Shown one piece after another: positions 52,271-64,000 of a stretch of 64,000 bases of DNA (the stretch's first letter is position 1; every line of letters starts with the position of its first letter). The stretch is from Mumia sp. zg.B17 (GTDB lineage: Bacteria > Actinomycetota > Actinomycetes > Propionibacteriales > Nocardioidaceae): the NCBI RefSeq assembly GCF_019550915.1, contig NZ_JAHWCI010000006.1, positions 62,001 through 126,000 of the forward strand. Reading direction: 5' to 3'. The notes below the pieces were generated by a model. That model was not told where the DNA came from, made no database searches, and worked only from the letters and a program-made list of their open reading frames with translations. The translations under genes were made by a program, and so were the position numbers.

Positions 52271-53185
52271 TCATCGCTCGTCCAGCAGCTGGGTCAGCCC
52301 GTGCTGGCCGACCGCACGTAGGACGGGCGCGTCGTCGGACGCGGCGATGAGGACCGCCGCGAAGAGCACCGCCCACCCACGTGCGCGTTCCCACGTCATG
52401 GCGTCGGCGTAGCCGGCCCGGGACACCTGCTCACGGAACTCGGCGCGCCCCGGTGCGTCGAAGGTCAGCCACGCCGTCGCGAGGTCGGTCGCCGGATCAC
52501 CGGACGTCATGTCGCCGAAGTCGATCACCGCCGACAGAGCGAGGTCGTCTCCCCCGTCGGTGACGAGCACGTTCGCGGGATGGAGGTCGCCGTGGAGCCA
52601 CGGCGGCGGCCCCTCCCAAACAGGCGCCGCCACCGCCGTTTCCCAGAGGCTCAGCAGCTCCCCCGCGTACGGCACGTGTCCGGTTGCGACGCGCTCCCGC
52701 ATCCCCTCGTCGCGGGCGGCGAGCGGAACGCCTCGGTACGGGTTGCGCGGCGCGTCCTCCGGAGCCGGTCGGTGCAGTGCGGTCACGACGTCGGCGAGCG
52801 GCCGCGCCACCGTGCGGCGGTCGACCACCGGAGTCTCCCCCAGCATGCGTCCGTCGAACCAGGCGACGATGCTCCACGCCCACGGGTATTCCGGCCCGCG
52901 CGTGCCGTCGCTCGGCAGCCCGGTGCGTACGGGCTCGGGGACGGGGACCGGGAGGTGCGGCGCGAGGATCGGCAGCCAGTCCTGCTCGTGGCGGACGAGG
53001 TCCGCGGCGAGTGCCCGCCGAGGCACTCGGAGCGCGAGGTCATCACCGAGCCGCAGCACCACGTTGTCCCACCCGTTCGCGACGAGTCGGATCGGGAGGT
53101 CGGCGAGATCGGGATGCTGAGCCTCGAGGAGCCCTCGGACGAGCGGTATCGTCACGTCGATCTCGGCGGCAGGCATGGGCGGCAC
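52271..53185 (-). CDS. Aminoglycoside phosphotransferase (APH)-family kinase-like protein
   Basis: 304-residue protein-kinase-like fold. GWDNVVLRLGDDLALRVPRR contains the ATP-site segment, the catalytic loop is WLHGDLHPANVLV and the metal Asp is in AVIDFGDMTSGDPATD. Members phosphorylate diverse small molecules; resistance cannot be inferred. TAGCAT lies 6 bases before the GTG at 53185, with no Shine-Dalgarno, consistent with a leaderless message. Divergent from the large LuxR regulator. Confidence 0.88.
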   Translation of the reverse strand: MPPMPAAEIDVTIPLVRGLLEAQHPDLADLPIRLVANGWDNVVLRLGDDLALRVPRRALAADLVRHEQDWLPILAPHLPVPVPEPVRTGLPSDGTRGPEYPWAWSIVAWFDGRMLGETPVVDRRTVARPLADVVTALHRPAPEDAPRNPYRGVPLAARDEGMRERVATGHVPYAGELLSLWETAVAAPVWEGPPPWLHGDLHPANVLVTDGGDDLALSAVIDFGDMTSGDPATDLATAWLTFDAPGRAEFREQVSRAGYADAMTWERARGWAVLFAAVLIAASDDAPVLRAVGQHGLTQLLDER

Positions 53186-53248
53186 CGCTCGATGCTAGTG
53201 CGATGCAAGAACTCGGCCCGGCTGAACCGCCTTTGCGATCATGCGGGG

Positions 53249-56122
53249 GTGGACCGGTCGGTACCGTCCCCCACGACCGCGCTCGTCGGTCGTGACCGCG
53301 AGCGCAAGCTGCTTAGCGCCCTCCTCGACGAGACCGAGGCGGGACGTGCGTGCACCGTGCTCGTGCACGGTGAGGCGGGAGTGGGCAAGACATCGCTCGT
53401 CCGTGCTGTCACCGAAGCCCGCACCGAGGGTGTCGCCCTGTACGGAGCGGGTCTGCCCTTGTCGAGCCTGACGGTGCCGCTGCTCGCCATCCGGTCTCTG
53501 GTGCGCGAGCTGCCCGACGACGTCCCGCCCCTCGATCTGCCCAACGGCCATGACGCCGCGGACGCTCTGGTGGGTATCGATGCCTGGCTCGACAGGCTCG
53601 CGGAGACACGCCCCGTCGCACTTGTGGTCGACGACCTCCACTGGGCAGACCAGACGTCGTTGGACGTGCTGCAGTACGTCGTCGCCGGGCCGGAGCGCCG
53701 TCGGTTGTCGATCATGGCCACGGTCCGTTCCGGGGCGGTGACCGATGAACACCCGCTCACGCGCTGGCTCGCCGACGTGCGTCGACTGCCGCGTGTCGAG
53801 GAGATCGAGCTCGCACCGCTCGACCGGGCGTCCACCCTCGACCAGCTCACCAGCCTCCTCGGGGAGACGCCCCACGGCTCTCTCGTCGGCGAGGTGTACG
53901 CCCGGGCCGGTGGGAACCCCTACTTCACCCGCCTCCTAGCGACCGGTCTACGCAGCGACGCTCGTCACCTGCCCACCGCGATGCCGGGATCGTTGCACGA
54001 CGCGCTCCTGCGAACCTCCTCCACGCTCTCGGCGTCGGCGAGACGCGGGACCCAGACCCTCGCCGTCGGTGGCCATCCGGCGACCTACGACGAGCTTGAT
54101 GACGTCGCCCCGGATCTCCGGTGGGACGAGATCGTGCCCGAGGCCGTCGCCGCTGGGGTCGTCGACGCGCTTCCAGCTGGGCGGTTCTGGATCCACCACC
54201 CGCTCCTCGCCGAGACCATGGAGGCAGAGATGCCCGGGCGGGAGCGACGTGCCCGGCACCGCGCCTTCGCGCAGTGGTGGGAGCGACAACCGCCGTTGCA
54301 CGAGGAGACGGCCGAGGCCGCACGCGTCGCTCTGGTGGCCGACCACTACTTCCAGGCCCAGGACACCGATCACGCCCGGACCTGGGCGCTGCGTGCGGCA
54401 GAGGCCGCCGAGTCGGCGGGCGCCTGGTCGGAGGCACATCGTCTGCTCGAGCGAGAGCTCACACACGACTCGTCGGACGGACGCGACGACACGCGGCTCG
54501 GCCTCCTTCACCGCGCCCGGGCCGCCGCCGAGATGTCCGGGGACCTCGACGCCGAGCTCGCCCTGGTCGACGAGCTGATGACGTGCGTGGACCCAGCGAC
54601 CGACCCGCTCGCCGTGGCCGACCTGATCGTGCGGCGCGCCAGCGTCCGCCACCTGACGGGCCGGACGTACGTCGACGACGACGCACTGGCGGCCGCCGAG
54701 ACGCTCGCCCGCTCACAGCCTCCGTCGGCCACGCTGGTGCGAACGCTTGCGTGGAGCGCGATGCATGGTGACTGGGAGCCCGCCAAGTGCGCCGCGCTCA
54801 GCGAGGAAGCCGTCATGATCGCCCAGGAGATCGGCGCCGCCGTCGGCATGGCGCTCACGGCCAAGTCCGTGACGGCCTTCGTCGGTGACGACGCCGCGGC
54901 ATCGATCGCCTGCGCAGGTGAGGCAGTTGCCGCAAGCATGCGCGAAGGCGACTGGCCATCGGCGGCGAGGAGTGCGGAGTACCGCACCTGCGCGGGCGAC
55001 TCGGCCTGGTCACCCTGGTTCGCCGAGCAGATCGCGCGCGACCGCGAGCACCTCGCCGCTTCCGGCGCACCGCGGCACGAGATCGTGCTCTTCGACATCC
55101 TCGAAGCCGATGCTCGCCTCTGGATCGGCGAGTGGGAGGAGTGCGTGGCGATTCTCCGCTCCTGCATGGCGACGCGGCTGCAGCCGATGTGGGACGCCGG
55201 CGGGCGTCTGTCGCTCGCCCATCTCGCGGCGGGGCAAGGGCGCCACGAGGAGGCAGCGTCGCACCTGGCGCGAGCCGAGGAGCTCGTTGTCGACACGCAG
55301 AGCTTCTACGAGCTCGAGTTCGACGCGGTCCGGGCGCTGGTGGCGCTCGCCGCTGCCGATCCTGAGGCTGCCTACTCCCACGCGGTCGCGGGTCTGGGGT
55401 TCGACACGCTTCCGCCGTCCATGATCGAGTACCTGCTCCCGCTGGCGGTGCGGGCTCTCGCCGACCAGATCGAGCGACGTCGAGCCGCCGGGGAGGGCAC
55501 CGACGACCTGCTGCGCATGCTCACCGAGCTCGCTGCGACTCACCGCCACATCGTCCTGGACATCGGTGAGATGCAGCCGTGGGTGGCAGCCCAGATCGAA
55601 GCGATCCAGGTGCTCTACCGTGCCGAGCTCGCACGCGCGATGTCGAGCCCGGACGCGCCCCTGCTCTGGCGTGTCACCACGGTCCGCGCCCGCCGCGCGC
55701 ACCTGCGCTGGGACGAGGCGTACGCGGGATGGCGCTGGGCCGAAGCGCTGCTGCGCTCCGGCGATCACGGACGTGAGACCAACGGGATCCTGCGCGACGC
55801 CCACGTGCTCGCGAGCCGGCTCGGGGCCGTCCCCGTGATCGACGCCCTCGAACGGCTCGCGGCAAGCGCCCACATCTCGTTGGCGGAGGTGGTGGGCGAG
55901 CCCGCCGGGACGTGGGCCGACGGCGCCCTTCCCGGCCTCACCCCACGCGAGAACGAGATCGTGGCGCACCTGGTCGCCGGGCGGACGTACGCGGAGATCG
56001 CTGATGCGCTCGTCATCAGCGAGAAGACGGTGAGCTCCCACGTGTCGAACATCTTGCGCAAGAGCGGTGCGAAGAACCGCGTCGAGCTCGCGGTGCTGGC
56101 CCAGCACCGGGTGGGCCCCTGA
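53249..56122 (+). CDS. Large ATP-binding LuxR-family (LAL/MalT-type) regulator
   Basis: 957-residue regulator. Residues about 15-180 are an AAA/NACHT-like ATPase (Walker A VHGEAGVGKTSLV; Walker B VALVVDDLHWADQTSLDVLQY, the typical DDLHWAD of LAL proteins). The middle is helical and TPR-like. The LuxR helix-turn-helix is at about 890-950: LPGLTPRENEIVAHLVAGRTYAEIADALVIS then EKTVSSHVSNILRKSGAKNRVELA. GTG 53249 is the first start before the conserved part; the open frame extends far upstream through the antisense of the APH gene. Ligand and targets unknown. Confidence 0.92.
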   Translation: MDRSVPSPTTALVGRDRERKLLSALLDETEAGRACTVLVHGEAGVGKTSLVRAVTEARTEGVALYGAGLPLSSLTVPLLAIRSLVRELPDDVPPLDLPNGHDAADALVGIDAWLDRLAETRPVALVVDDLHWADQTSLDVLQYVVAGPERRRLSIMATVRSGAVTDEHPLTRWLADVRRLPRVEEIELAPLDRASTLDQLTSLLGETPHGSLVGEVYARAGGNPYFTRLLATGLRSDARHLPTAMPGSLHDALLRTSSTLSASARRGTQTLAVGGHPATYDELDDVAPDLRWDEIVPEAVAAGVVDALPAGRFWIHHPLLAETMEAEMPGRERRARHRAFAQWWERQPPLHEETAEAARVALVADHYFQAQDTDHARTWALRAAEAAESAGAWSEAHRLLERELTHDSSDGRDDTRLGLLHRARAAAEMSGDLDAELALVDELMTCVDPATDPLAVADLIVRRASVRHLTGRTYVDDDALAAAETLARSQPPSATLVRTLAWSAMHGDWEPAKCAALSEEAVMIAQEIGAAVGMALTAKSVTAFVGDDAAASIACAGEAVAASMREGDWPSAARSAEYRTCAGDSAWSPWFAEQIARDREHLAASGAPRHEIVLFDILEADARLWIGEWEECVAILRSCMATRLQPMWDAGGRLSLAHLAAGQGRHEEAASHLARAEELVVDTQSFYELEFDAVRALVALAAADPEAAYSHAVAGLGFDTLPPSMIEYLLPLAVRALADQIERRRAAGEGTDDLLRMLTELAATHRHIVLDIGEMQPWVAAQIEAIQVLYRAELARAMSSPDAPLLWRVTTVRARRAHLRWDEAYAGWRWAEALLRSGDHGRETNGILRDAHVLASRLGAVPVIDALERLAASAHISLAEVVGEPAGTWADGALPGLTPRENEIVAHLVAGRTYAEIADALVISEKTVSSHVSNILRKSGAKNRVELAVLAQHRVGP

Positions 56123-56896: not shown

Positions 56897-57655
56897 TCAG
56901 TGCGTGTGCGGCTCGAGGGGGACCGTCGGCGACGACGGGTCGCCGCCACCAACGCCGTACGAGAGAGCGAGGGTCAGAAGGCCCAGGGCGACGACGACGA
57001 GCGTGCCGTCGCCTCGAGGGACGTTGCTGCCGCGCCTCCGCTCGAGCACCCCCAGCACAGTGGCCACGGCCATGGCGACAAGGCCGTGGCCGATCATCAC
57101 CGCCGTCATGAGGACGCAGCAGGTCGCGACGCACCGCCGCCCCGTCGCGACGCCGTAGCGGACACAGTCGCGGTCCGCCCTCCATCCGCTCACCGCCAAC
57201 GGCATCGTCATCGCGCACTGGCGGAGGAGGCGTCGCCGCGACGGGGCTGCGTACGCCGCGGCGGCGACCGCGAAGCCCACCACGATCGCGGGGCGCCATC
57301 CCACGAACGTGACGAGCAGGCCGCCGAGGACGACAGACGCGGTCGCGACCGCCGTCCAAACGGCGAGATAGCCGGTCAGGTAGCCCGCCGCAGCCCGGTA
57401 GCGCCGCGACCAGAGGCTGGACTGGGCGACGAAGGCGACCTGCGGAAGGACGAACGGCACCATCATCGCCACCACCATCACCGCCGCATGCCCGATCGCG
57501 TGCAGCGGCGGGTGGACCTCGGGCGAGCCGAAGAAGCGTCCGGGATCGGCGAGCGCGAGCCACGCAAGTACAACCCAGGCCGATGCCGCGAGCACCACGG
57601 CGCACCACTCGGGGTGGTACCAGTGCGTCCGTACGACGAACGTCGCGCCGCTCAT
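56897..57655 (-). CDS. DUF2182 polytopic membrane protein
   Basis: 252-residue membrane protein with six to seven hydrophobic segments. AAVMVVAMMVPFVLPQVAFVAQ and DCVRYGVATGRRCVATCCVLMTAVMIGHG match the predicted metal-binding DUF2182 (COG5486) pattern, including the Cys/His cluster in a membrane segment. The gene begins 13 bases after the tyrosinase stop, so it is the last member of the right-edge operon. A role in copper handling for the oxidase is inference only. Confidence 0.8.
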   Translation of the reverse strand: MSGATFVVRTHWYHPEWCAVVLAASAWVVLAWLALADPGRFFGSPEVHPPLHAIGHAAVMVVAMMVPFVLPQVAFVAQSSLWSRRYRAAAGYLTGYLAVWTAVATASVVLGGLLVTFVGWRPAIVVGFAVAAAAYAAPSRRRLLRQCAMTMPLAVSGWRADRDCVRYGVATGRRCVATCCVLMTAVMIGHGLVAMAVATVLGVLERRRGSNVPRGDGTLVVVALGLLTLALSYGVGGGDPSSPTVPLEPHTH

Positions 57656-57668
57656 GCGTGGACCATGC

Positions 57669-59786
57669 TCATGCGTAGAAGAGGCTGACCCGGCCGACCG
57701 CGACGTCACCCGACGGGACGTTGCCGGTGGCGTCGGGGATCGGCGTGAACGAGACGTCAAGCTTCTTGGGGTCCCACTGCCCCGCCGCCGCCAGCGCCTT
57801 CACGATCCGGGTGATCTCGAACGTGGCGTTCTTCCCGCTGCCGCTGTGGGTGTCGGACTTCGTGGAGGACTCGATCACCCCGAACATCGAGAGCAGACCC
57901 GCCTTGCGGTCGGGGAAGTCTCGCGGCGATGCCCCCGGGGGTACGTTCACGTGAACGACGACCGATCCCGCACCGAGCCGGGTCGCGGTGACGTTCTCCA
58001 GGCGGAGGAAGACACGCGAGCCTGGGGGGACTCCCCCCGACTCCTCGATCAGCCGCGCGACCGGACCCCTCGGGGCGTTCACGTCCACGCGCGCCGAGGA
58101 GGGTCGTGAACCCACCTGTACGGGCCCGCTGGACGCACCGACCATCTCCGGCGGCCGTTCCTCCTGCTCGGCAACGGGCTGCGGCACCTCGTCGAACCGT
58201 TCGGCGAGCGCTTCGCGGGCGGCGGCAGCGGGCATGTCCGCGTACCGGTATCCCAACGGCGGCCGGCGGGGGTCGATCACCTGTGCCGTGGTCAACGTCG
58301 TGGTGGTGGTGCCGGACCCGAACACCCATCGGGCGTCTCGCCAGTCGTTCCGGGTCGGGTTGCGGTTGTTGCCTCGGCGCAGCCACGCCTCCCAGAGCCG
58401 GTCGATGTTGGCGTGGTGGAGCCAGAAGAGCGGATCGCGGCCCGCGGTCTCGAAACGTGCCATGAGTCCTCGGGGCGCCGAACCACCGACGGCCATGTGG
58501 ACACCGCCGTGGGGTGAGTCCTCCAGCGCACCGGAACCGGGACCACCGGCGTGGGTGCCCACGGGTGCCGCCCGCCCGCCGAACCCTGGCGAGAACGGCC
58601 CGGTGAACTGGTTGGTCTCCATGGCGCTGGTGAGCTCGACGGCGTCCGCAGCCATCGCTGCCCCTCCGTTGATCCCGGGTGCACGCTGGGACACGAGCAG
58701 CGGGTTGGGCTGGTTGTCGGGCGTCCGGGCGTCACGAAACGCCGGGGGGATCCTGCGGACGTCCGAACGGGACTGGTCGCTGTAGTTCCAGAACGGCAGC
58801 GCCCAGCCCTGCGGACCACCGAGGCGGGTGATCTCGTCTCGCACGATCCGCTCGAAGTGGTGGAGGTAGACGCGGTGCCACGGCAGGAAGTGCCAGCTCT
58901 CGTGCTCACAGGCGTTCCAGCGCGCACCGGACGGCCAGGACGACCGGTCGATGTCGGTGCCGTGCGTCTCGGCGAGGTGACGCCAGCAGCGCGGGTCGGC
59001 GAACGTCGTGCCGTCCCTGGCCTGGAGCGCGGTGATCGCGCGGGCGTACCAGAGGATGGTGGGGTGCCACCGGTCGGCCGCGCTGAGAGTCCAGACGTCT
59101 TCACGGACTCGTACGCCCGGCGTGGGCATGGGTGTCGGGGTGGGCGCAGGTGTCGGGGTGGGCACAGGTGCGGGGCCGGGTACTGGCGCCGGGCCCGGCG
59201 CGAGCTTCTCGAGCTCCGGCCACGTCTTCGGTCCGATCACCCCGTCACGGACCAGGCCGCGACACGCCTGGAACATCTTCGTCGCGAGCTCCGTCCCCTG
59301 CCCGAACCGGCAGTCGACGACGAGCGGGTCCTGGCCGATCGCCTTGAGCTGCGGCTGCAACGACGCTATGTACTGACGCGTCGCCTGGCTGGTGTCGCTG
59401 CACGCCGGCGTGCCGGAGCGCCATGCCGCCAGGAACCGGTTCAGGAGGTGCTGCGCGTAGCCGACCGCGGGGTTGCGCGCCTTCGAGGCCGAGGTGCTGC
59501 GGTGGATGAGCGGCCGCGGCCCGACCGGGGCTGCCGGCGGCCCGTCACCCGGCGCGCACCGGTACGCGCCCCAGGTCTCGGCCTCCGTGGTGGGATCTTC
59601 TCCCCACTCGGTCTCGCCCCACTCGGTCTCGCCCCACTCGGTCTCGCCCCACTCCGTCTCGCCCCACTCGGTCTGGGTCGACGACACGGCCTCTGCCCCA
59701 CCCTCGGTCCGGAACGGGCTCTCGTCGAACCACTCCTGCGTGCCCGCATCGGTCTCGGTCTGCCACGGCACCTCGTCCTCGAGCAT
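57669..59786 (-). CDS. Tyrosinase-type copper oxidase with TEWGE repeat tag and PG-binding-like module
   Basis: 705 residues. Residues 1-75 are acidic and Trp-rich with five exact TEWGE repeats (39-63). Residues about 105-195 look like a peptidoglycan-binding module (NPAVGYAQHLLNRF, VVDCRFGQGTELATKMFQ, LVRDGVIGPKTWPEL). A Pro-Ala-Thr linker covers 197-225. The type-3 copper domain runs about 230-475: CuA ligands in the 270-304 region (His295, His304 in HESWHFLPWH), CuB His426 and His430 (HGGVH) and His457/458 in FWLHHANIDRLW. A C-terminal beta domain (about 580-705) resembles the shielding domain of polyphenol oxidases. No classical signal peptide. Substrate unknown. Confidence 0.85.
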   Translation of the reverse strand: MLEDEVPWQTETDAGTQEWFDESPFRTEGGAEAVSSTQTEWGETEWGETEWGETEWGETEWGEDPTTEAETWGAYRCAPGDGPPAAPVGPRPLIHRSTSASKARNPAVGYAQHLLNRFLAAWRSGTPACSDTSQATRQYIASLQPQLKAIGQDPLVVDCRFGQGTELATKMFQACRGLVRDGVIGPKTWPELEKLAPGPAPVPGPAPVPTPTPAPTPTPMPTPGVRVREDVWTLSAADRWHPTILWYARAITALQARDGTTFADPRCWRHLAETHGTDIDRSSWPSGARWNACEHESWHFLPWHRVYLHHFERIVRDEITRLGGPQGWALPFWNYSDQSRSDVRRIPPAFRDARTPDNQPNPLLVSQRAPGINGGAAMAADAVELTSAMETNQFTGPFSPGFGGRAAPVGTHAGGPGSGALEDSPHGGVHMAVGGSAPRGLMARFETAGRDPLFWLHHANIDRLWEAWLRRGNNRNPTRNDWRDARWVFGSGTTTTTLTTAQVIDPRRPPLGYRYADMPAAAAREALAERFDEVPQPVAEQEERPPEMVGASSGPVQVGSRPSSARVDVNAPRGPVARLIEESGGVPPGSRVFLRLENVTATRLGAGSVVVHVNVPPGASPRDFPDRKAGLLSMFGVIESSTKSDTHSGSGKNATFEITRIVKALAAAGQWDPKKLDVSFTPIPDATGNVPSGDVAVGRVSLFYA
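59603..59674 (-). repeat. 15-bp coding tandem repeat encoding TEWGE
   Basis: About five consecutive copies of the 15-bp unit GTCTCGCCCCACTCG (plus-strand reading), nearly identical at the DNA level. One copy differs by a single base. Near-identity in silent positions indicates recent expansion or slippage. Confidence 0.9.
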
Positions 59787-59797
59787 GGTTCACCCCG

Positions 59798-60919
59798 TCA
59801 TCGCTTGGTCAGCGGCCGCGGCGCGGCGACGACCTGGATCGGTGTCGGGCGTTCCTTGAGGTTGCGCCCGCTCGCAGCCGCCCACTCGGTGATCACGCGA
59901 CGCACCTCGGTGCCCAGCGGGACCGCGCCGGGCGGCAACGGTGGCAGGGCCGGCGGCACCGTGCTCTGATACAGCAACCATGCGGTGCCGCTGTCGGTCA
60001 CCCAGCCGGCCTCGAGCGCACGCAGCACCAGGGACAGCTCCTGGGCCATCGCGAAGAACGAGTTCGCCCGCGAGTGCGGTGTCAGCCCGACCCGCTCGCC
60101 GATCACCCGGAGCCGGTCGGCCGCGCTCGTCGCCTGAGCCCGCAGGTCCACCACGACCGGAGTGTTGGAGCCGAGCGTCAGCTCCACCCATCCCATCGCG
60201 GTCGTCGCCGCGAGCTCCTCGCGGCTCAGCAGCGCGTTCTGGCGGCGGGAGCGCAGCATGAACCCGATCTGCTCGGCGAGCCGATAGATCCGGTCGTCGT
60301 CGGTGGTGTTGCCAGCGACCAGGTTCCGCACGTTCTCGATCGCGCGCCACAGCTCGTACAGCAGCTCCTCGAGCAGCGCGACGAACGTCCGGTTCGAGGC
60401 CTCGGCCTTCTCGTACGGGTACGGCGCGTTGGCGTCGGTACCGTGGGCGAGGTCCATGCCGAACATCCGGTAGTACGCGTTGCGGCGTACGGCTTCGGCG
60501 TCGGGACGCACGGCGCTCGTCGACAGCCACGCGGCCACGGGGTTGTGGGCGCCGAACAACAAGGTCTCGGTCGCGTCCAGCCAGCGCTGCGTCGACACCG
60601 AGGGGATGCCGAGCCCTTCGCCACCACGGAACGCACGCACGACACGCGCCAGGATGTGGGCGGCACGGGTGTTCTCGATCGCGTAGGCATAGATCAGGTG
60701 GTCCCACGCCGGCTGCGACGGCATCGCGACGCCGCCGAACGCCCCCTGGTTGAAGAGCGCGACGCGCGCGGGGCCGGCCGGGGGCGGGTTCGGTGCCCAC
60801 GGGTTGGCCGCGTCGAGGACCTGCTCCATGCGCCAGACGAGGTCGAGCGGGTCCGCGGTGATGACCTGGGCCTCCGCGGCGGGACCGCCACCGAGCTGTT
60901 GGACGAGCTGCGTGATCAT
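59798..60919 (-). CDS. Uncharacterised soluble protein of the tyrosinase operon
   Basis: 373 residues, largely helical. Notable segments are ADPLDLVWRMEQVLDAANPW, an aromatic-rich AYYRMFGMDLAHGTDANAPYPYEKAE, and a Pro-rich stretch PPALPPLPPGAVPLGTEVRRV before the last 45 residues. No signal peptide, membrane helix or known domain is visible. Starts with ATGA overlap on the preceding gene and ends 11 bases before the tyrosinase start. Function unknown. Confidence 0.72.
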   Translation of the reverse strand: MITQLVQQLGGGPAAEAQVITADPLDLVWRMEQVLDAANPWAPNPPPAGPARVALFNQGAFGGVAMPSQPAWDHLIYAYAIENTRAAHILARVVRAFRGGEGLGIPSVSTQRWLDATETLLFGAHNPVAAWLSTSAVRPDAEAVRRNAYYRMFGMDLAHGTDANAPYPYEKAEASNRTFVALLEELLYELWRAIENVRNLVAGNTTDDDRIYRLAEQIGFMLRSRRQNALLSREELAATTAMGWVELTLGSNTPVVVDLRAQATSAADRLRVIGERVGLTPHSRANSFFAMAQELSLVLRALEAGWVTDSGTAWLLYQSTVPPALPPLPPGAVPLGTEVRRVITEWAAASGRNLKERPTPIQVVAAPRPLTKR

Positions 60920-61344
60920 GCCACCTGCTCCTCGTAGTACGGGCCGGTGACCACCGGCCGGGCCTGACCGATGAACGAGACGGGGAGCTCGTAGTCCGTG
61001 GCCAGCTGCTGGAAGTTGGAGTCCCGGTCCCCGCCGAGCGAGTCCCGGATGACGGCGAGTGCCTCACCGACCCCGGGATCGAGCTCGAGGGCGGTGGACG
61101 GCGGGACGATGCTGCGCAGCGGTCCCATCACCTCCGCGATCTCGGCAAGACCGACCGCGAGGCCGTCGAGCCCGGCGATCCCGCCGAGCGTCGTCCACAC
61201 CTTGGCGAACTCCCGCGACGAGCTGTGCTGCATCGCCTCGACAGCCTCGAGCAGCTCCTCCGTGCGCTCCTCGATCGTCTCCATCGACGACGCCAGCGAC
61301 CTGGTCGTCGGGTTCGCGCTCGTCTTCTTCGCCACGTCTGCCAC
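60916..61344 (-). CDS. Small uncharacterised protein with coiled-coil N-terminus
   Basis: 142 residues. Residues 15-55 (METIEERTEELLEAVEAMQ and following) form a likely coiled coil; a Gly-rich stretch GGIAGLDGLAVGLAEIAEVMG follows, and the end is FIGQARPVVTGPYYEEQVA. No domain recognised. Overlaps the downstream gene in ATGA and lies 16 bases after the metallopeptidase-like gene. Confidence 0.68.
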   Translation of the reverse strand: MADVAKKTSANPTTRSLASSMETIEERTEELLEAVEAMQHSSSREFAKVWTTLGGIAGLDGLAVGLAEIAEVMGPLRSIVPPSTALELDPGVGEALAVIRDSLGGDRDSNFQQLATDYELPVSFIGQARPVVTGPYYEEQVA

Positions 61345-61360
61345 CTCCGCTAGGCGCCGC

Positions 61361-62611
61361 TCACGCGGCGACGCTCCGTTGTCCGGTCATCCAGGTCCTC
61401 GCCCGCGAGATCCACTCGCCGGCCCTCTCAGGGTTCTCGGCCTCCCGCAGCCCGGCGAGGGCGATCAGCCGGATGCCCTCCGTCCCGCGCCAGTGCGGCG
61501 AGGTCCACAGCGCGGGTCCTGCGCTCCGCTCCAGCTCCGCGAGCGCCGACGGCGACACCCGCTGGGGGTCGACCAGCGCACTGACCGGCCGGTCCCGGAA
61601 CCCGGGCACCGGGGTGTCGAGGCAGGTCGCGGCGATCGCGTCCAGGCGACGCTGCGAACGCAGGATGAGCGGCACGCTGCTCGCGTCGGCACGGCTCGCC
61701 GGATAGGTCGTCATGACCGCCCGCTCGAGCCGGTCCCACGGCCCAGGGCCGTACGCACGCCGACACATCGCGCAGCCCAGCAGGGTTCGCAACCACCCGA
61801 TCGGGTGCGGATCCCCCAACGGCCACCGGAAGAGCGTCCGCTCGTCGCCGACCACGTCGTGCAGGGCGGCGACGGAGGCGAACCCGGTCAGGACGAACGC
61901 GTACACGTCCGCAGCGATCTCGCTGCTCCACGGCTGCCACATCGCCTTCAGGGCGGGATCGTCGGCGAGGGTCTTGCCGAGCGCGTCCGCGAGGGCGGCG
62001 TTCCATCCCGCGAGGTGGGCGACCTGGTGCCCCGTCTCGTGGAAGAGCGAGGTGGGACGATAAAGGTTGTGCCGCACGATCTTGACGGCGGCGACGGGGT
62101 TGACGGCCCCAGGGGCCCAGAGCCGGATCCCCACCCGGAGGATGCTGGCGCCCAAGCCCTCCCCCAGGTACGTGAGCACTGGGGGAACAGGGAGGCCGAG
62201 CGGCCGCAGGACCGGCTCGATGCTCTGGTAGGCGACCGAGTCGAGGAACTGCAGCGTCGTACGGAGATGTGTGCTCGTGCGGGTGTTGACCGCCTGTCCG
62301 AAGAAGTCCAGCGTCGTCTCCACCTGGACGTAGCGACGGCGGAACTGCTGCACCGCTGCGTGCGCCTCCGCGAGCCGCCCGGGATCCAGGCGACTGGCCC
62401 GGACCGCCGCCGTGGTCGTCCGGCCGTTCTCCAGCAGCTGGTCGACCGTCTGCGCCAGCTGGGTCCGCACCGGCAGGCCGATCGAGCGCTCGAGCGACTC
62501 CCACGCGTGCCGTGACGCGAACTCCTCGGCGTCGACGAAGCACTGCGCGGCACCGGTCCAGTGACCGAGCTGACGCTCGAGCTCGTCGGCGATCAGGCGG
62601 TGCTCGTTCAC
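61361..62611 (-). CDS. Predicted metallopeptidase-like protein (HETGH motif)
   Basis: 416 residues. Long helical N-terminus to about 135, then a domain with LFHETGHQVAHLAGW at 189-203: HExxH at 191-195 with a plausible third ligand in SEIAADVYAF (Glu231 or Asp235), the gluzincin layout. The segment before the motif, NPVAAVKIVRHNLYRPTS, fits an edge strand. Cys residues occur near LLGCAMCRRAYG. The protein has no signal peptide. GTG start overlaps the upstream gene's stop (GTGA). Protease activity is inferred from the motif only. Confidence 0.75.
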   Translation of the reverse strand: MNEHRLIADELERQLGHWTGAAQCFVDAEEFASRHAWESLERSIGLPVRTQLAQTVDQLLENGRTTTAAVRASRLDPGRLAEAHAAVQQFRRRYVQVETTLDFFGQAVNTRTSTHLRTTLQFLDSVAYQSIEPVLRPLGLPVPPVLTYLGEGLGASILRVGIRLWAPGAVNPVAAVKIVRHNLYRPTSLFHETGHQVAHLAGWNAALADALGKTLADDPALKAMWQPWSSEIAADVYAFVLTGFASVAALHDVVGDERTLFRWPLGDPHPIGWLRTLLGCAMCRRAYGPGPWDRLERAVMTTYPASRADASSVPLILRSQRRLDAIAATCLDTPVPGFRDRPVSALVDPQRVSPSALAELERSAGPALWTSPHWRGTEGIRLIALAGLREAENPERAGEWISRARTWMTGQRSVAA

Positions 62612-64000
62612 GGTTCGACCCTCCCGGGGACGACCGTGACCGTGGCGGGCGCCGCGGGCACCGCCGTCGTCCCGTTGCTGCCGGCGGTCGCAGCCTGTGG
62701 CGCCGTCCCGGGCGTCTCACCGGCGTCCGCGTCGTCGGCCGGGCCGGCGACGCCTCGCAGATGCACCTGAACGGTGACTCCGCGAGCCGGGTCCTGGGCG
62801 GCCCGCACGAACTCGTTGCCCCGCGTCCGGACGAACTCGGCCAACGCCTTGGCCAGGCCCGCACGCAACCGCCGCTGCGCACGCGACGGCCCTCGCCCAC
62901 GCCCTCGGCCCCGTCCCCGCGGTGCCGTGGGTCGACGCCGACGCGGACCCCGCGCCGTCGCGAAGGCAGAGCGGAGCAGCGCGCGGAGCAGGGTCGTGCC
63001 CCCGCGGCCCGAGGCGACGGCAGCGGCGAGGCGTTGCGCGTCGGCCTCGGAGAAGAACAGCGACAGGCGGACGTCGCCACGTGACTCGTCGCTCCTGACC
63101 CTGCCGTCGCTCGGACGGACGGCCTCGGCGGCCGAACCCGGCGTCGCGTCGGGAGCGCCGCTCTGGCCCACAGGCTCGAGACGGAAGAAGCGCTGGCCCA
63201 CGGAGATGCGGTGGCGCGACGCCAGGAAGCGGACGGGGGCATCGACACCGAGCCGCGGCTCGCGCAGCAGCACCCCCGCGTTGGCGATCGTCAGCGGATG
63301 CAGCTGGCTGTGCGCACCTCGGGCGGACGCCGACCCCGCGATCCTCTCGAGTCGCGCGAGGCGCACCAACGTCGTCCCCGGACCTGACTCGTACACGTGC
63401 ACGCGGAACCGTCCCGGCAGGGCGATCCCCGCTGCTCGCAGCGCGGCAGCCAGCGTGACGCCGCCGAACGTCGTCACGGTCGAGGCGACCGCAGCGGTCA
63501 CCTCGATCTCGGGCACCCGGGAGAACTTCTTGTAGGCGTAGGCCGTGCGAGCGTGCCGGACGACGAACGACCCGCCGAGCGACGGCGCGATCTGCAGGTC
63601 GGGCCGTACGAGCTGGGTGGGGAAGTTCGCTGCCACCGCCTCCTCGAAGGCCTCGGACAGAGCCACCTGGAGGAGGTCCTCGTCCTCGAAGAACGCCGCC
63701 GGCTGCTCCGAGAGCCGCCGCACCGTGTCCTCGACCGTCGCAGCGAGCGCCGCGGGGGCAGCCTCCTGCTCGAGATCGCCCGGACGGCCTTGCTCGAGCC
63801 CGATCACACGCATGCCCACATCGACGATCGCCGACGACAGGGGGCCGGAGAGCTTCGGCCCGACCCACTGTCCGATGAGCTTGGCGAGGAAACCCGACAG
63901 GAAGCCCACCACCTTCGGGCGACCGACGAGCCGGACGCCGAGCCTGAGCGCGGGCAGGATCGCGGGGAGGAACTGGTCGATCGCCGGGGTGAGGTCCTCA
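62608..64000 (-). CDS. Uncharacterised protein, 5' end beyond the window
   Basis: Open frame continues without a stop to the last base, so the N-terminus is missing; at least 463 residues are visible. The first visible part, LTPAIDQFLPAILPALRLGV then VGFLSGFLAKLIGQWVGPKL, is amphipathic. A globular middle (DLQIAPSLGGSFVVRHARTAYAYKKF) follows, then an Arg-rich segment with RGRGRGRGRG (about 110 residues before the end) and an Ala/Pro/Thr tail. No domain recognised. It heads the visible part of the operon. GTG 63912 could be taken as a start but upstream codons remain protein-like. Confidence 0.7.
   Translation of the reverse strand, partial: EDLTPAIDQFLPAILPALRLGVRLVGRPKVVGFLSGFLAKLIGQWVGPKLSGPLSSAIVDVGMRVIGLEQGRPGDLEQEAAPAALAATVEDTVRRLSEQPAAFFEDEDLLQVALSEAFEEAVAANFPTQLVRPDLQIAPSLGGSFVVRHARTAYAYKKFSRVPEIEVTAAVASTVTTFGGVTLAAALRAAGIALPGRFRVHVYESGPGTTLVRLARLERIAGSASARGAHSQLHPLTIANAGVLLREPRLGVDAPVRFLASRHRISVGQRFFRLEPVGQSGAPDATPGSAAEAVRPSDGRVRSDESRGDVRLSLFFSEADAQRLAAAVASGRGGTTLLRALLRSAFATARGPRRRRPTAPRGRGRGRGRGPSRAQRRLRAGLAKALAEFVRTRGNEFVRAAQDPARGVTVQVHLRGVAGPADDADAGETPGTAPQAATAGSNGTTAVPAAPATVTVVPGRVEP

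Follow-up and report, generated by a model that had tools for sequence, protein, structure and literature searches.

An operon of six minus-strand genes lies at the right-hand edge of a 64,000-nucleotide (nt) stretch of the Mumia sp. zg.B17 genome (contig NZ_JAHWCI010000006.1, positions 62,001 to 126,000; the whole stretch is referred to here as the window). Counted in coordinates extended past the window, it runs from 65010 down to 56897, and encodes an Arg-rich protein (ARG), a protein with an HETGH motif (HETGH), a small protein (CC, described as a coiled coil in the first-pass annotation), a 373-residue protein (P373), a tyrosinase, and a DUF2182 protein. Comparison across genomes showed that such loci consist of a conserved core followed by a variable enzyme, which we call the payload, and that an acidic leader containing an [STN]PF motif is common to ARG and many payloads. 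The first-pass annotation of the window had described six genes with overlaps or gaps of 16 nt or less, and all positions and junctions were as it had claimed: the ARG and HETGH genes overlap by 4 nt, as do the small gene and the P373 gene, and gaps of 16, 11 and 13 nt follow the HETGH, P373 and tyrosinase genes, respectively. The last of these gaps assumes that the DUF2182 gene starts at ATG 57655, which matches the starts in congeners; the longest open reading frame (ORF) begins at TTG 57760. The ARG gene, correctly taken to be cut by the window edge, extends to an ATG at 65010 and encodes about 800 amino acids (aa).

Table 1. Features of the Mumia operon, in window coordinates.
Feature	Position	Strand	Basis
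ARG, tagged core protein, ~800 aa	62608..64000, continuing outside window to ~65010	-	gene calls, model
HETGH protein, 416 aa, predicted zincin/gluzincin-like metallopeptidase	61361..62611	-	HExGH + ExxxD ~35-39 aa downstream
CC, small protein, 142 aa	60916..61344	-	gene calls, BLAST
P373, all-helical core protein, 373 aa	59798..60919	-	sequence searches, structure model
Payload: tagged tyrosinase, 705 aa	57669..59786	-	Pfam, structure alignment
ESPF motif, payload leader residues 22-25	59712..59723	-	kept in Mumia congeners
Five TEWGE repeats, residues 39-63, acidic/aromatic leader	59598..59672	-	repeat unit differs in congeners
PG_binding_1 module of payload, residues 140-189	59220..59369	-	Pfam
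Type-3 copper (tyrosinase) domain, residues 268-470	58377..58985	-	Pfam PF00264, alignment
DUF7868, C-terminal domain of tyrosinase, residues 546-704	57675..58151	-	Pfam
PpoB2-type copper chaperone (PF09948/DUF2182), 252 aa, predicted payload-specific helper	56897..57655	-	Pfam, congener starts

Two of the six proteins belong to recognised families. The Mumia payload contains PG_binding_1, Tyrosinase (PF00264, E 3.5e-31) and DUF7868 domains, which bears out its earlier description as a type-3 copper oxidase with TEWGE repeats and a peptidoglycan (PG)-binding-like module. The CuA and CuB histidines of type-3 copper enzymes are kept, as C-x-H, WHR, H-x3-H and HH, in an alignment to hemocyanin, and the solved chain 8b74 aligns over the enzyme and the C-terminal domain together. 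The last gene of the operon belongs to PF09948, called PpoB2 copper chaperone in the Pfam version used. According to the available part of PMC2855505, a Marinomonas tyrosinase receives its copper from PpoB2; the Mumia protein is likely the copper supplier of the payload, a role close to the copper handling that had been suggested for it. Searches of Pfam, NCBIfam, PHROGs and PADLOC with the other four proteins (ARG, HETGH, the small protein and P373) gave nothing better than noise, in line with their first listing as unknown proteins.

Relatives were sought through HETGH. A tblastn search against plasmids returned six distant matches, and a profile built from six aligned HETGH proteins was scanned on one genome per species (84,980 species), yielding 306 pattern-matching stretches, of which 202 encode a relative. 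The best 80 of these 202 were retained with their flanks and, together with five plasmid loci, form a set of 85 HETGH loci in which partner genes were sought by profiles on six-frame translations. P373 was present in five of six Mumia genomes, including that of the window, plus a single genome from a different family, making 6 of 58 overall; in Mumia xiangluensis (NZ_WJYO01000002.1) the HETGH region matched at 90% identity. Among 396 sampled genomes of the phylum, HETGH was found in the window's own genome only, a lower bound with four candidates scored per genome. The congener that lacks the cassette (G003) gave no clean empty site: HETGH is absent, and no core or BTAD regulator gene was seen among the genes beside a flanking-gene relative. 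In that genome (G003:C1:735985-747592, L108), the relative of flanking gene R03 is retained amid unrelated genes.

The core genes keep company with one another. An ARG-type gene (ARG or its class II counterpart, SH) lies within 4 kb upstream of HETGH in 77 of the 79 loci with enough flank, and a P373 gene, or the class II gene P2, is present no more than 6 kb downstream in 69 of 71; the exceptions are L016 and L017, both divergent loci on plasmids. Loci were retrieved by HETGH alone, and because the partner profiles drew mostly on these very loci, with classes assigned by the partners themselves, these counts establish presence and are not an independent test. A less circular count, made by BLAST with the window proteins on 91 loci (two genomes entering twice, as L018/L022 and L021/L023), recovered HETGH in 83, ARG in 48, P373 in 46 and the small protein in only four, one being a duplicate. 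A same-strand small gene between HETGH and P373 was nevertheless called in 26 of the 40 loci in which both neighbors were called.

Two classes of locus could be distinguished. Class I comprises 43 loci by profile, or 47 by BLAST once the window and further genomes are added and duplicates dropped, and has the order ARG, HETGH, P373, payload; a BTAD regulator accompanies 31 of the 47. In class II (40 loci by profile, 38 by BLAST), the first gene encodes SH, a shorter protein rich in Gly, and HETGH and P2 come next. ARG and SH have a common domain (hhalign probability 91, E 1e-6). Of the 38 class II loci, 24 have a pyridoxal phosphate (PLP) aminotransferase (PF00155) and 19 have an amidohydrolase (PF04909), which hints at a small-molecule or modification step that is absent or rare in class I. 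The class I rows of the HETGH tree include 29 from Actinomycetota, 10 from Pseudomonadota, and one metagenome-assembled locus each from Bacteroidota, Verrucomicrobiota and Myxococcota. On a Bradyrhizobium quebecense plasmid (L017:11440-12861), a distant HETGH relative has no ARG/SH or P373/P2 by profile and neighbors CHAT-domain, patatin-like and phospholipase D-like proteins, an S8/S53 peptidase, a GMC oxidoreductase and a peptidase M4; it may perhaps represent a third class. Upstream of the class II operon in L010 (8439-9746) and L066 (a 436-aa gene), the opposite strand encodes a protein that looks, by eye, like the SH tag plus Gly-rich region. In Arthrobacter sp. OVS8 (L064:7869-15138), ARG, HETGH and payload are each split into short frames, apparently a decayed copy or a sequencing problem.

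The gene that follows the core is not constant. For 38 of the 44 class I loci with P373 (duplicates L018 and L021 dropped), gene calling identified the next gene on the same strand, and these 38 first payloads include eight tyrosinases, 16 proteins with cell-wall-hydrolase domains (M15, VanY, DUF2272, which we take to be papain-like, glucosaminidase, lysozyme and NlpC/P60) and eight without any Pfam domain. Counted by domain, with several possible per protein, there were 13 PG_binding_1, eight Tyrosinase, five M15_3, five VanY, four Glucosaminidase, three DUF2272, two Phage_lysozyme2, two M15_4, and one each of NlpC/P60, M35, PhoD and DUF4056. Thirty payloads are not tyrosinases: besides the 16 whose wall-hydrolase match passes the cut-off and the eight with nothing, five of which are Nocardia loci, one has PhoD, one DUF4056 and one PG_binding_1 only, and three have weak matches under the curated cut-off, one to pesticin and two to OmpA. 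Three further loci that BLAST had labelled as tyrosinase (L031, L095 and L098) have PG-binding and no tyrosinase domain by Pfam. The second tagged gene was scanned in one Nocardia locus (L052), where it encodes glucosaminidase and M15 domains; the second gene of L038 encodes Amidase_2. Among eight class II candidate payloads scanned, we found glucosaminidase plus DUF2272, GIY-YIG, trypsin-like and weak extensin-like domains, one each and all four with PG-binding as well; three have PG-binding only and one has nothing. Since tyrosinase accounts for only 8 of the 38 first payloads, we rejected the proposal that the operon is built around it. The expectation that the four unknown genes would co-occur with the tyrosinase in other genomes fails; these genes do co-occur with one another, and for that reason the idea of a distinct system survives.

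What many payloads have in common with ARG is their N-terminal leader. Of 36 ARG tails, 35 contain [STN]PF (mean 2.5 and maximum 8 after shuffling) and 27 contain it at least twice (mean 0.08 after shuffling); 21 of 29 spacings between motifs measure 23 to 28 residues, across class I phyla. The part of Mumia ARG beyond the window edge includes two such tags, both TPFAE. Of the 38 payloads, 20 have [STN]PF within the first 120 residues (mean 2.0 and maximum 7 after shuffling), and in 21 Asp plus Glu make up at least 20% of those residues, compared with 1.8% of 713 other genes. The SPF form alone is found in 17 of 38 payloads, in 3 of 268 neighboring genes, and in 1 of 127 HETGH and P373 proteins; the Fisher p value for payloads versus neighbors (8e-15) overstates the evidence because the loci are related. 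Mumia congeners carry repeats other than TEWGE and retain the ESPF just before them, and on this sequence comparison we read the TEWGE repeat as a local variant of the acidic [STN]PF leader. Five free-standing tyrosinases, drawn from a sample of 296 genomes with three candidates scored per listed genome, align only from query residue 223-226 and have just 1-49 residues ahead of that point, so they have neither the tag nor the PG-binding module.

In all eight tyrosinase loci the PpoB2 gene follows the tyrosinase, which is what joint arrival of enzyme and helper would predict. These loci, from Mumia, Phycicoccus and Gordonia, form one supported clade in the HETGH tree, nested within a supported group of 16 that also contains Granulicoccus and nine Pseudomonadota and stands apart from most Actinomycetota. 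Payloads in this group include tyrosinase, M15, DUF2272, VanY, M35 and PhoD. The grouping fits cassette transfer between phyla and is not proof of it.

An HExxH motif with a downstream Glu in an ExxxD motif is the signature of zincin/gluzincin metallopeptidases. HExGH, in the form HE[TV]GH, was present in 84 of 85 HETGH loci, 74 of which have W.SE...D and the other ten printed rows E...D at the equivalent place, about 35-39 residues downstream. HETGH thus carries the signature and is a predicted enzyme, in agreement with its initial reading as a zinc peptidase. It matched no Pfam family at E values up to 1 and no solved relative by sequence. Of the other core proteins, ARG begins with an acidic tail that carries two TPFA motifs, and also has helical bundles, a beta-containing part, and an Arg-rich stretch; in its model, residues 1-58 have a predicted local distance difference test (pLDDT) score below 50, except residue 19, and the tail is probably disordered. 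Structure searches with this model gave generic matches only. The best 19-residue hydropathy of ARG proteins ranges from 1.18 to 1.99, with 19 of 49 at or above 1.6. P373 was modeled confidently as all-helical, and has no sequence family and no clear solved structural relative.

We looked for a route by which the payload could leave the cytoplasm. Within their first 45 residues, five of the six operon proteins, including the payload, reach a 19-residue hydropathy of at most 0.56 and on this measure have no signal-peptide-like start. The earlier remark that none has a normal signal peptide therefore stands for these five; PpoB2 scores 2.34 counted from its ATG and is a hydrophobic protein of membrane type in its own right. 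It had also been proposed that a dedicated structure, such as a contractile injection system or a protein shell encoded further right, exports or packages the proteins. To the right of the operon lie a divergent BTAD-type regulator (PF03704) and then 36 kb of ordinary-looking genes, among which no contractile system or shell was recognised (gene calls read by eye, without a domain scan). In the window's genome, which is 99.97% complete (G000), contractile sheath (PF04984), encapsulin (PF04454) and microcompartment shell (PF00936) all lacked a family match and were rejected as candidates; among secretion systems the search covered the sheath and did not extend to type VII or others. Encapsulin is present in 15 of 30 carrier genomes and the microcompartment shell in one of 30. 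The four cassette-bearing congeners (G001, G002, G004 and G005) each have an encapsulin match, unlike the window's genome. What is left of the proposal is that the core genes themselves may be the dedicated export or packaging structure. On the other side of the operon, directly to its left, is a LuxR-type regulator with an AAA_16 ATPase domain (52580-56122, plus strand), whose ORF start is probably called too early.

A phage origin and a known defence function were considered and rejected. HETGH of either class gave no match in 50,697 phage records. In PHROGs, the PG-binding module of the payload matched endolysins, the payload linker gave a weak match to a family of unknown function, and ARG gave one weak match. 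No PADLOC model of an anti-phage defence system matched any of 10 proteins at E values up to 0.01.

Together, gene order and domain content make it rather probable that the locus is a modular cassette in which enzymes bear a docking tag, undergo processing by a zinc peptidase, and are directed to the cell wall. In such a scheme, the leader would serve as a docking or sorting tag read by a core receptor (P373, the small protein or HETGH), and HETGH would cut the leaders of tagged proteins for maturation or release. ARG, with its helical bundles, would act as a vehicle or membrane-acting partner. The payload would reach peptidoglycan, often via its PG-binding module, by a path other than Sec/Tat or a contractile machine. 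In Mumia, PpoB2 would load the tyrosinase with copper, and the wall-bound enzyme would oxidise phenols there (tyrosine residues or wall-attached phenolics), giving melanin or cross-links; the wall acted on could be the producer's own or a competitor's. More tentatively, and at less than even confidence, ARG and P373 could form a non-contractile conduit or vehicle of a tag-addressed delivery system found in at least five phyla, which leaders load with enzymes and from which the zinc peptidase releases them at the wall. It is just as tentative that what this system places in Mumia, Phycicoccus and Gordonia is, in lieu of a lysin, an enzyme for oxidative cross-linking or melanin formation.

Several observations weigh against the tagged-cassette reading. 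The leader is far from universal: 18 of 38 payloads have no [STN]PF in their first 120 residues (among these, at least L024 and L047 look to have mis-called starts), and one actinobacterial clade seems, by eye, to have another leader containing WPxRxDVF. A looser motif, PF[AEGS], is unspecific, occurring in 22 of 38 payloads, 16 of 268 neighbors, and 29 of 127 HETGH and P373 proteins. Fourteen of the 30 non-tyrosinase payloads have no wall-hydrolase domain over the cut-off, eight of them no Pfam domain at all, and no muralytic enzyme was recognised in the Mumia operon. Hydropathy of SH is below 1.6 in 34 of 35 class II proteins; SH thus has no clear transmembrane helices, which disfavors a simple membrane pore. 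Comparison of P373 with P2 gave no demonstrated relationship. Finally, every function proposed here is deduced from gene order and domains.

We ranked export to the producer's own wall ahead of antagonism, and antagonism ahead of intracellular assembly. As an antibacterial weapon, a membrane-damaging, bacteriocin-like ARG or SH and a payload lysin, each inhibited by its acidic leader until HETGH removes it, would be released together on neighbors. The wall-hydrolase domains in 16 of 30 non-tyrosinase payloads and the weak pesticin-type lysozyme match would suit this, as would the Lys-rich helical and Gly-rich segments that occur in ARG and SH. Payload variety also recalls the polymorphic toxins described in the available part of PMC3482391: a constant N-terminus is joined to swapped C-terminal enzymes, with the shared motif in 20 of 38 payloads, not all. 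However, no release route is apparent, a tyrosinase with its copper chaperone would be an odd toxin, and among the genes listed we saw by eye no immunity gene recurring after the payload, with the exception of PpoB2 after tyrosinase. We consider the weapon doubtful. Tags might instead collect enzymes on an ARG/P373 scaffold inside the cell, a condensate or dormancy body, whose lysins act only upon lysis or differentiation. The acidic two-motif tails of most ARGs, the lack of a signal-peptide-like start, and the lack of recognised secretion genes beside the operon are all compatible with this, but the cytoplasm is an implausible place of action for wall hydrolases and for the PG-binding modules of 13 of 38 payloads, and we regard such an assembly as unlikely.

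Two further explanations fare much worse. The payload logic resembles that of PVC and extracellular contractile injection system (eCIS) toxins, and a sheath was matched in 9 of 30 carrier genomes (8 over the cut-off; the L030 genome not included), so payloads could be effectors of a contractile system encoded elsewhere in the genome. Twenty-one of the 30 carriers lack the sheath, as do the window's nearly complete genome and the four congeners, and DUF4157 matched neither HETGH nor any of the 38 payloads; effectors of this kind are very improbable in general and largely refuted for Mumia. That an ordinary melanin operon sits by chance beside unrelated genes is barely credible. Operons that pair a tyrosinase with PpoB2 are known (available part of PMC2855505), but the core and its order are kept without tyrosinase across phyla, which refutes this explanation, and the tyrosinase bears the core's tag where its five free-standing relatives do not.

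The tagged cassette of the favored reading has partial counterparts among known systems. In encapsulins and microcompartments, short cargo peptides address enzymes to a common assembly; the cassette differs in that its motif is an N-terminal [STN]PF within a long acidic leader and that its own genome has no shell match. Holin-endolysin lysis and holin-type export combine a membrane partner with a PG hydrolase. The cassette likewise has a possible membrane partner and PG hydrolases with PG-binding modules, but SH lacks clear transmembrane helices and payloads are not always muralytic. Eukaryotic EH-type adaptors dock NPF/SPF motifs, and the cassette's xPF is repeated in probably disordered tails, a resemblance of motif only. 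Polymorphic toxins, including PVC/eCIS toxins, share with the cassette a constant N-terminus, variable C-terminal enzymes, a metallopeptidase and PG-binding modules, as far as the available part of PMC3482391 describes them; their peptidase is a fused HExxHxxQ-E domain (DUF4157 in the PVC type), whereas that of the cassette is a separate core protein with HE[TV]GHQ and ExxxD. The cassette further differs in having no sheath in its own genome, no recurrent immunity gene that we noticed, and no core protein in the catalogued families searched. The PpoB1-PpoB2 operon of Marinomonas mediterranea, in the portion of PMC2855505 available, likewise places a tyrosinase and PpoB2 (COG5486) in one operon; in Mumia, the tyrosinase has gained a tag and a PG-binding module, and the pair stands behind four unrelated core genes.

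In the open literature, judged by titles and the beginnings of abstracts (subscription journals and preprints fell outside this scope), we found no description of the gene set. The cassette is apparently undescribed, and its core proteins apparently lie outside the catalogued families searched. Because these searches placed no core protein in a catalogued family and revealed neither a known delivery machine with it nor a description, we consider it, with reserve, a new kind of system. If the proposal is true, the cassette would be a new delivery or maturation route in bacterial cell-surface biology. It would explain how hydrolases and a tyrosinase without signal peptides gain access to the wall, and would provide a short, portable tag for moving enzymes. 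Even if export proves wrong, a family-less core conserved across phyla, with swappable enzymes, would remain a testable unknown.

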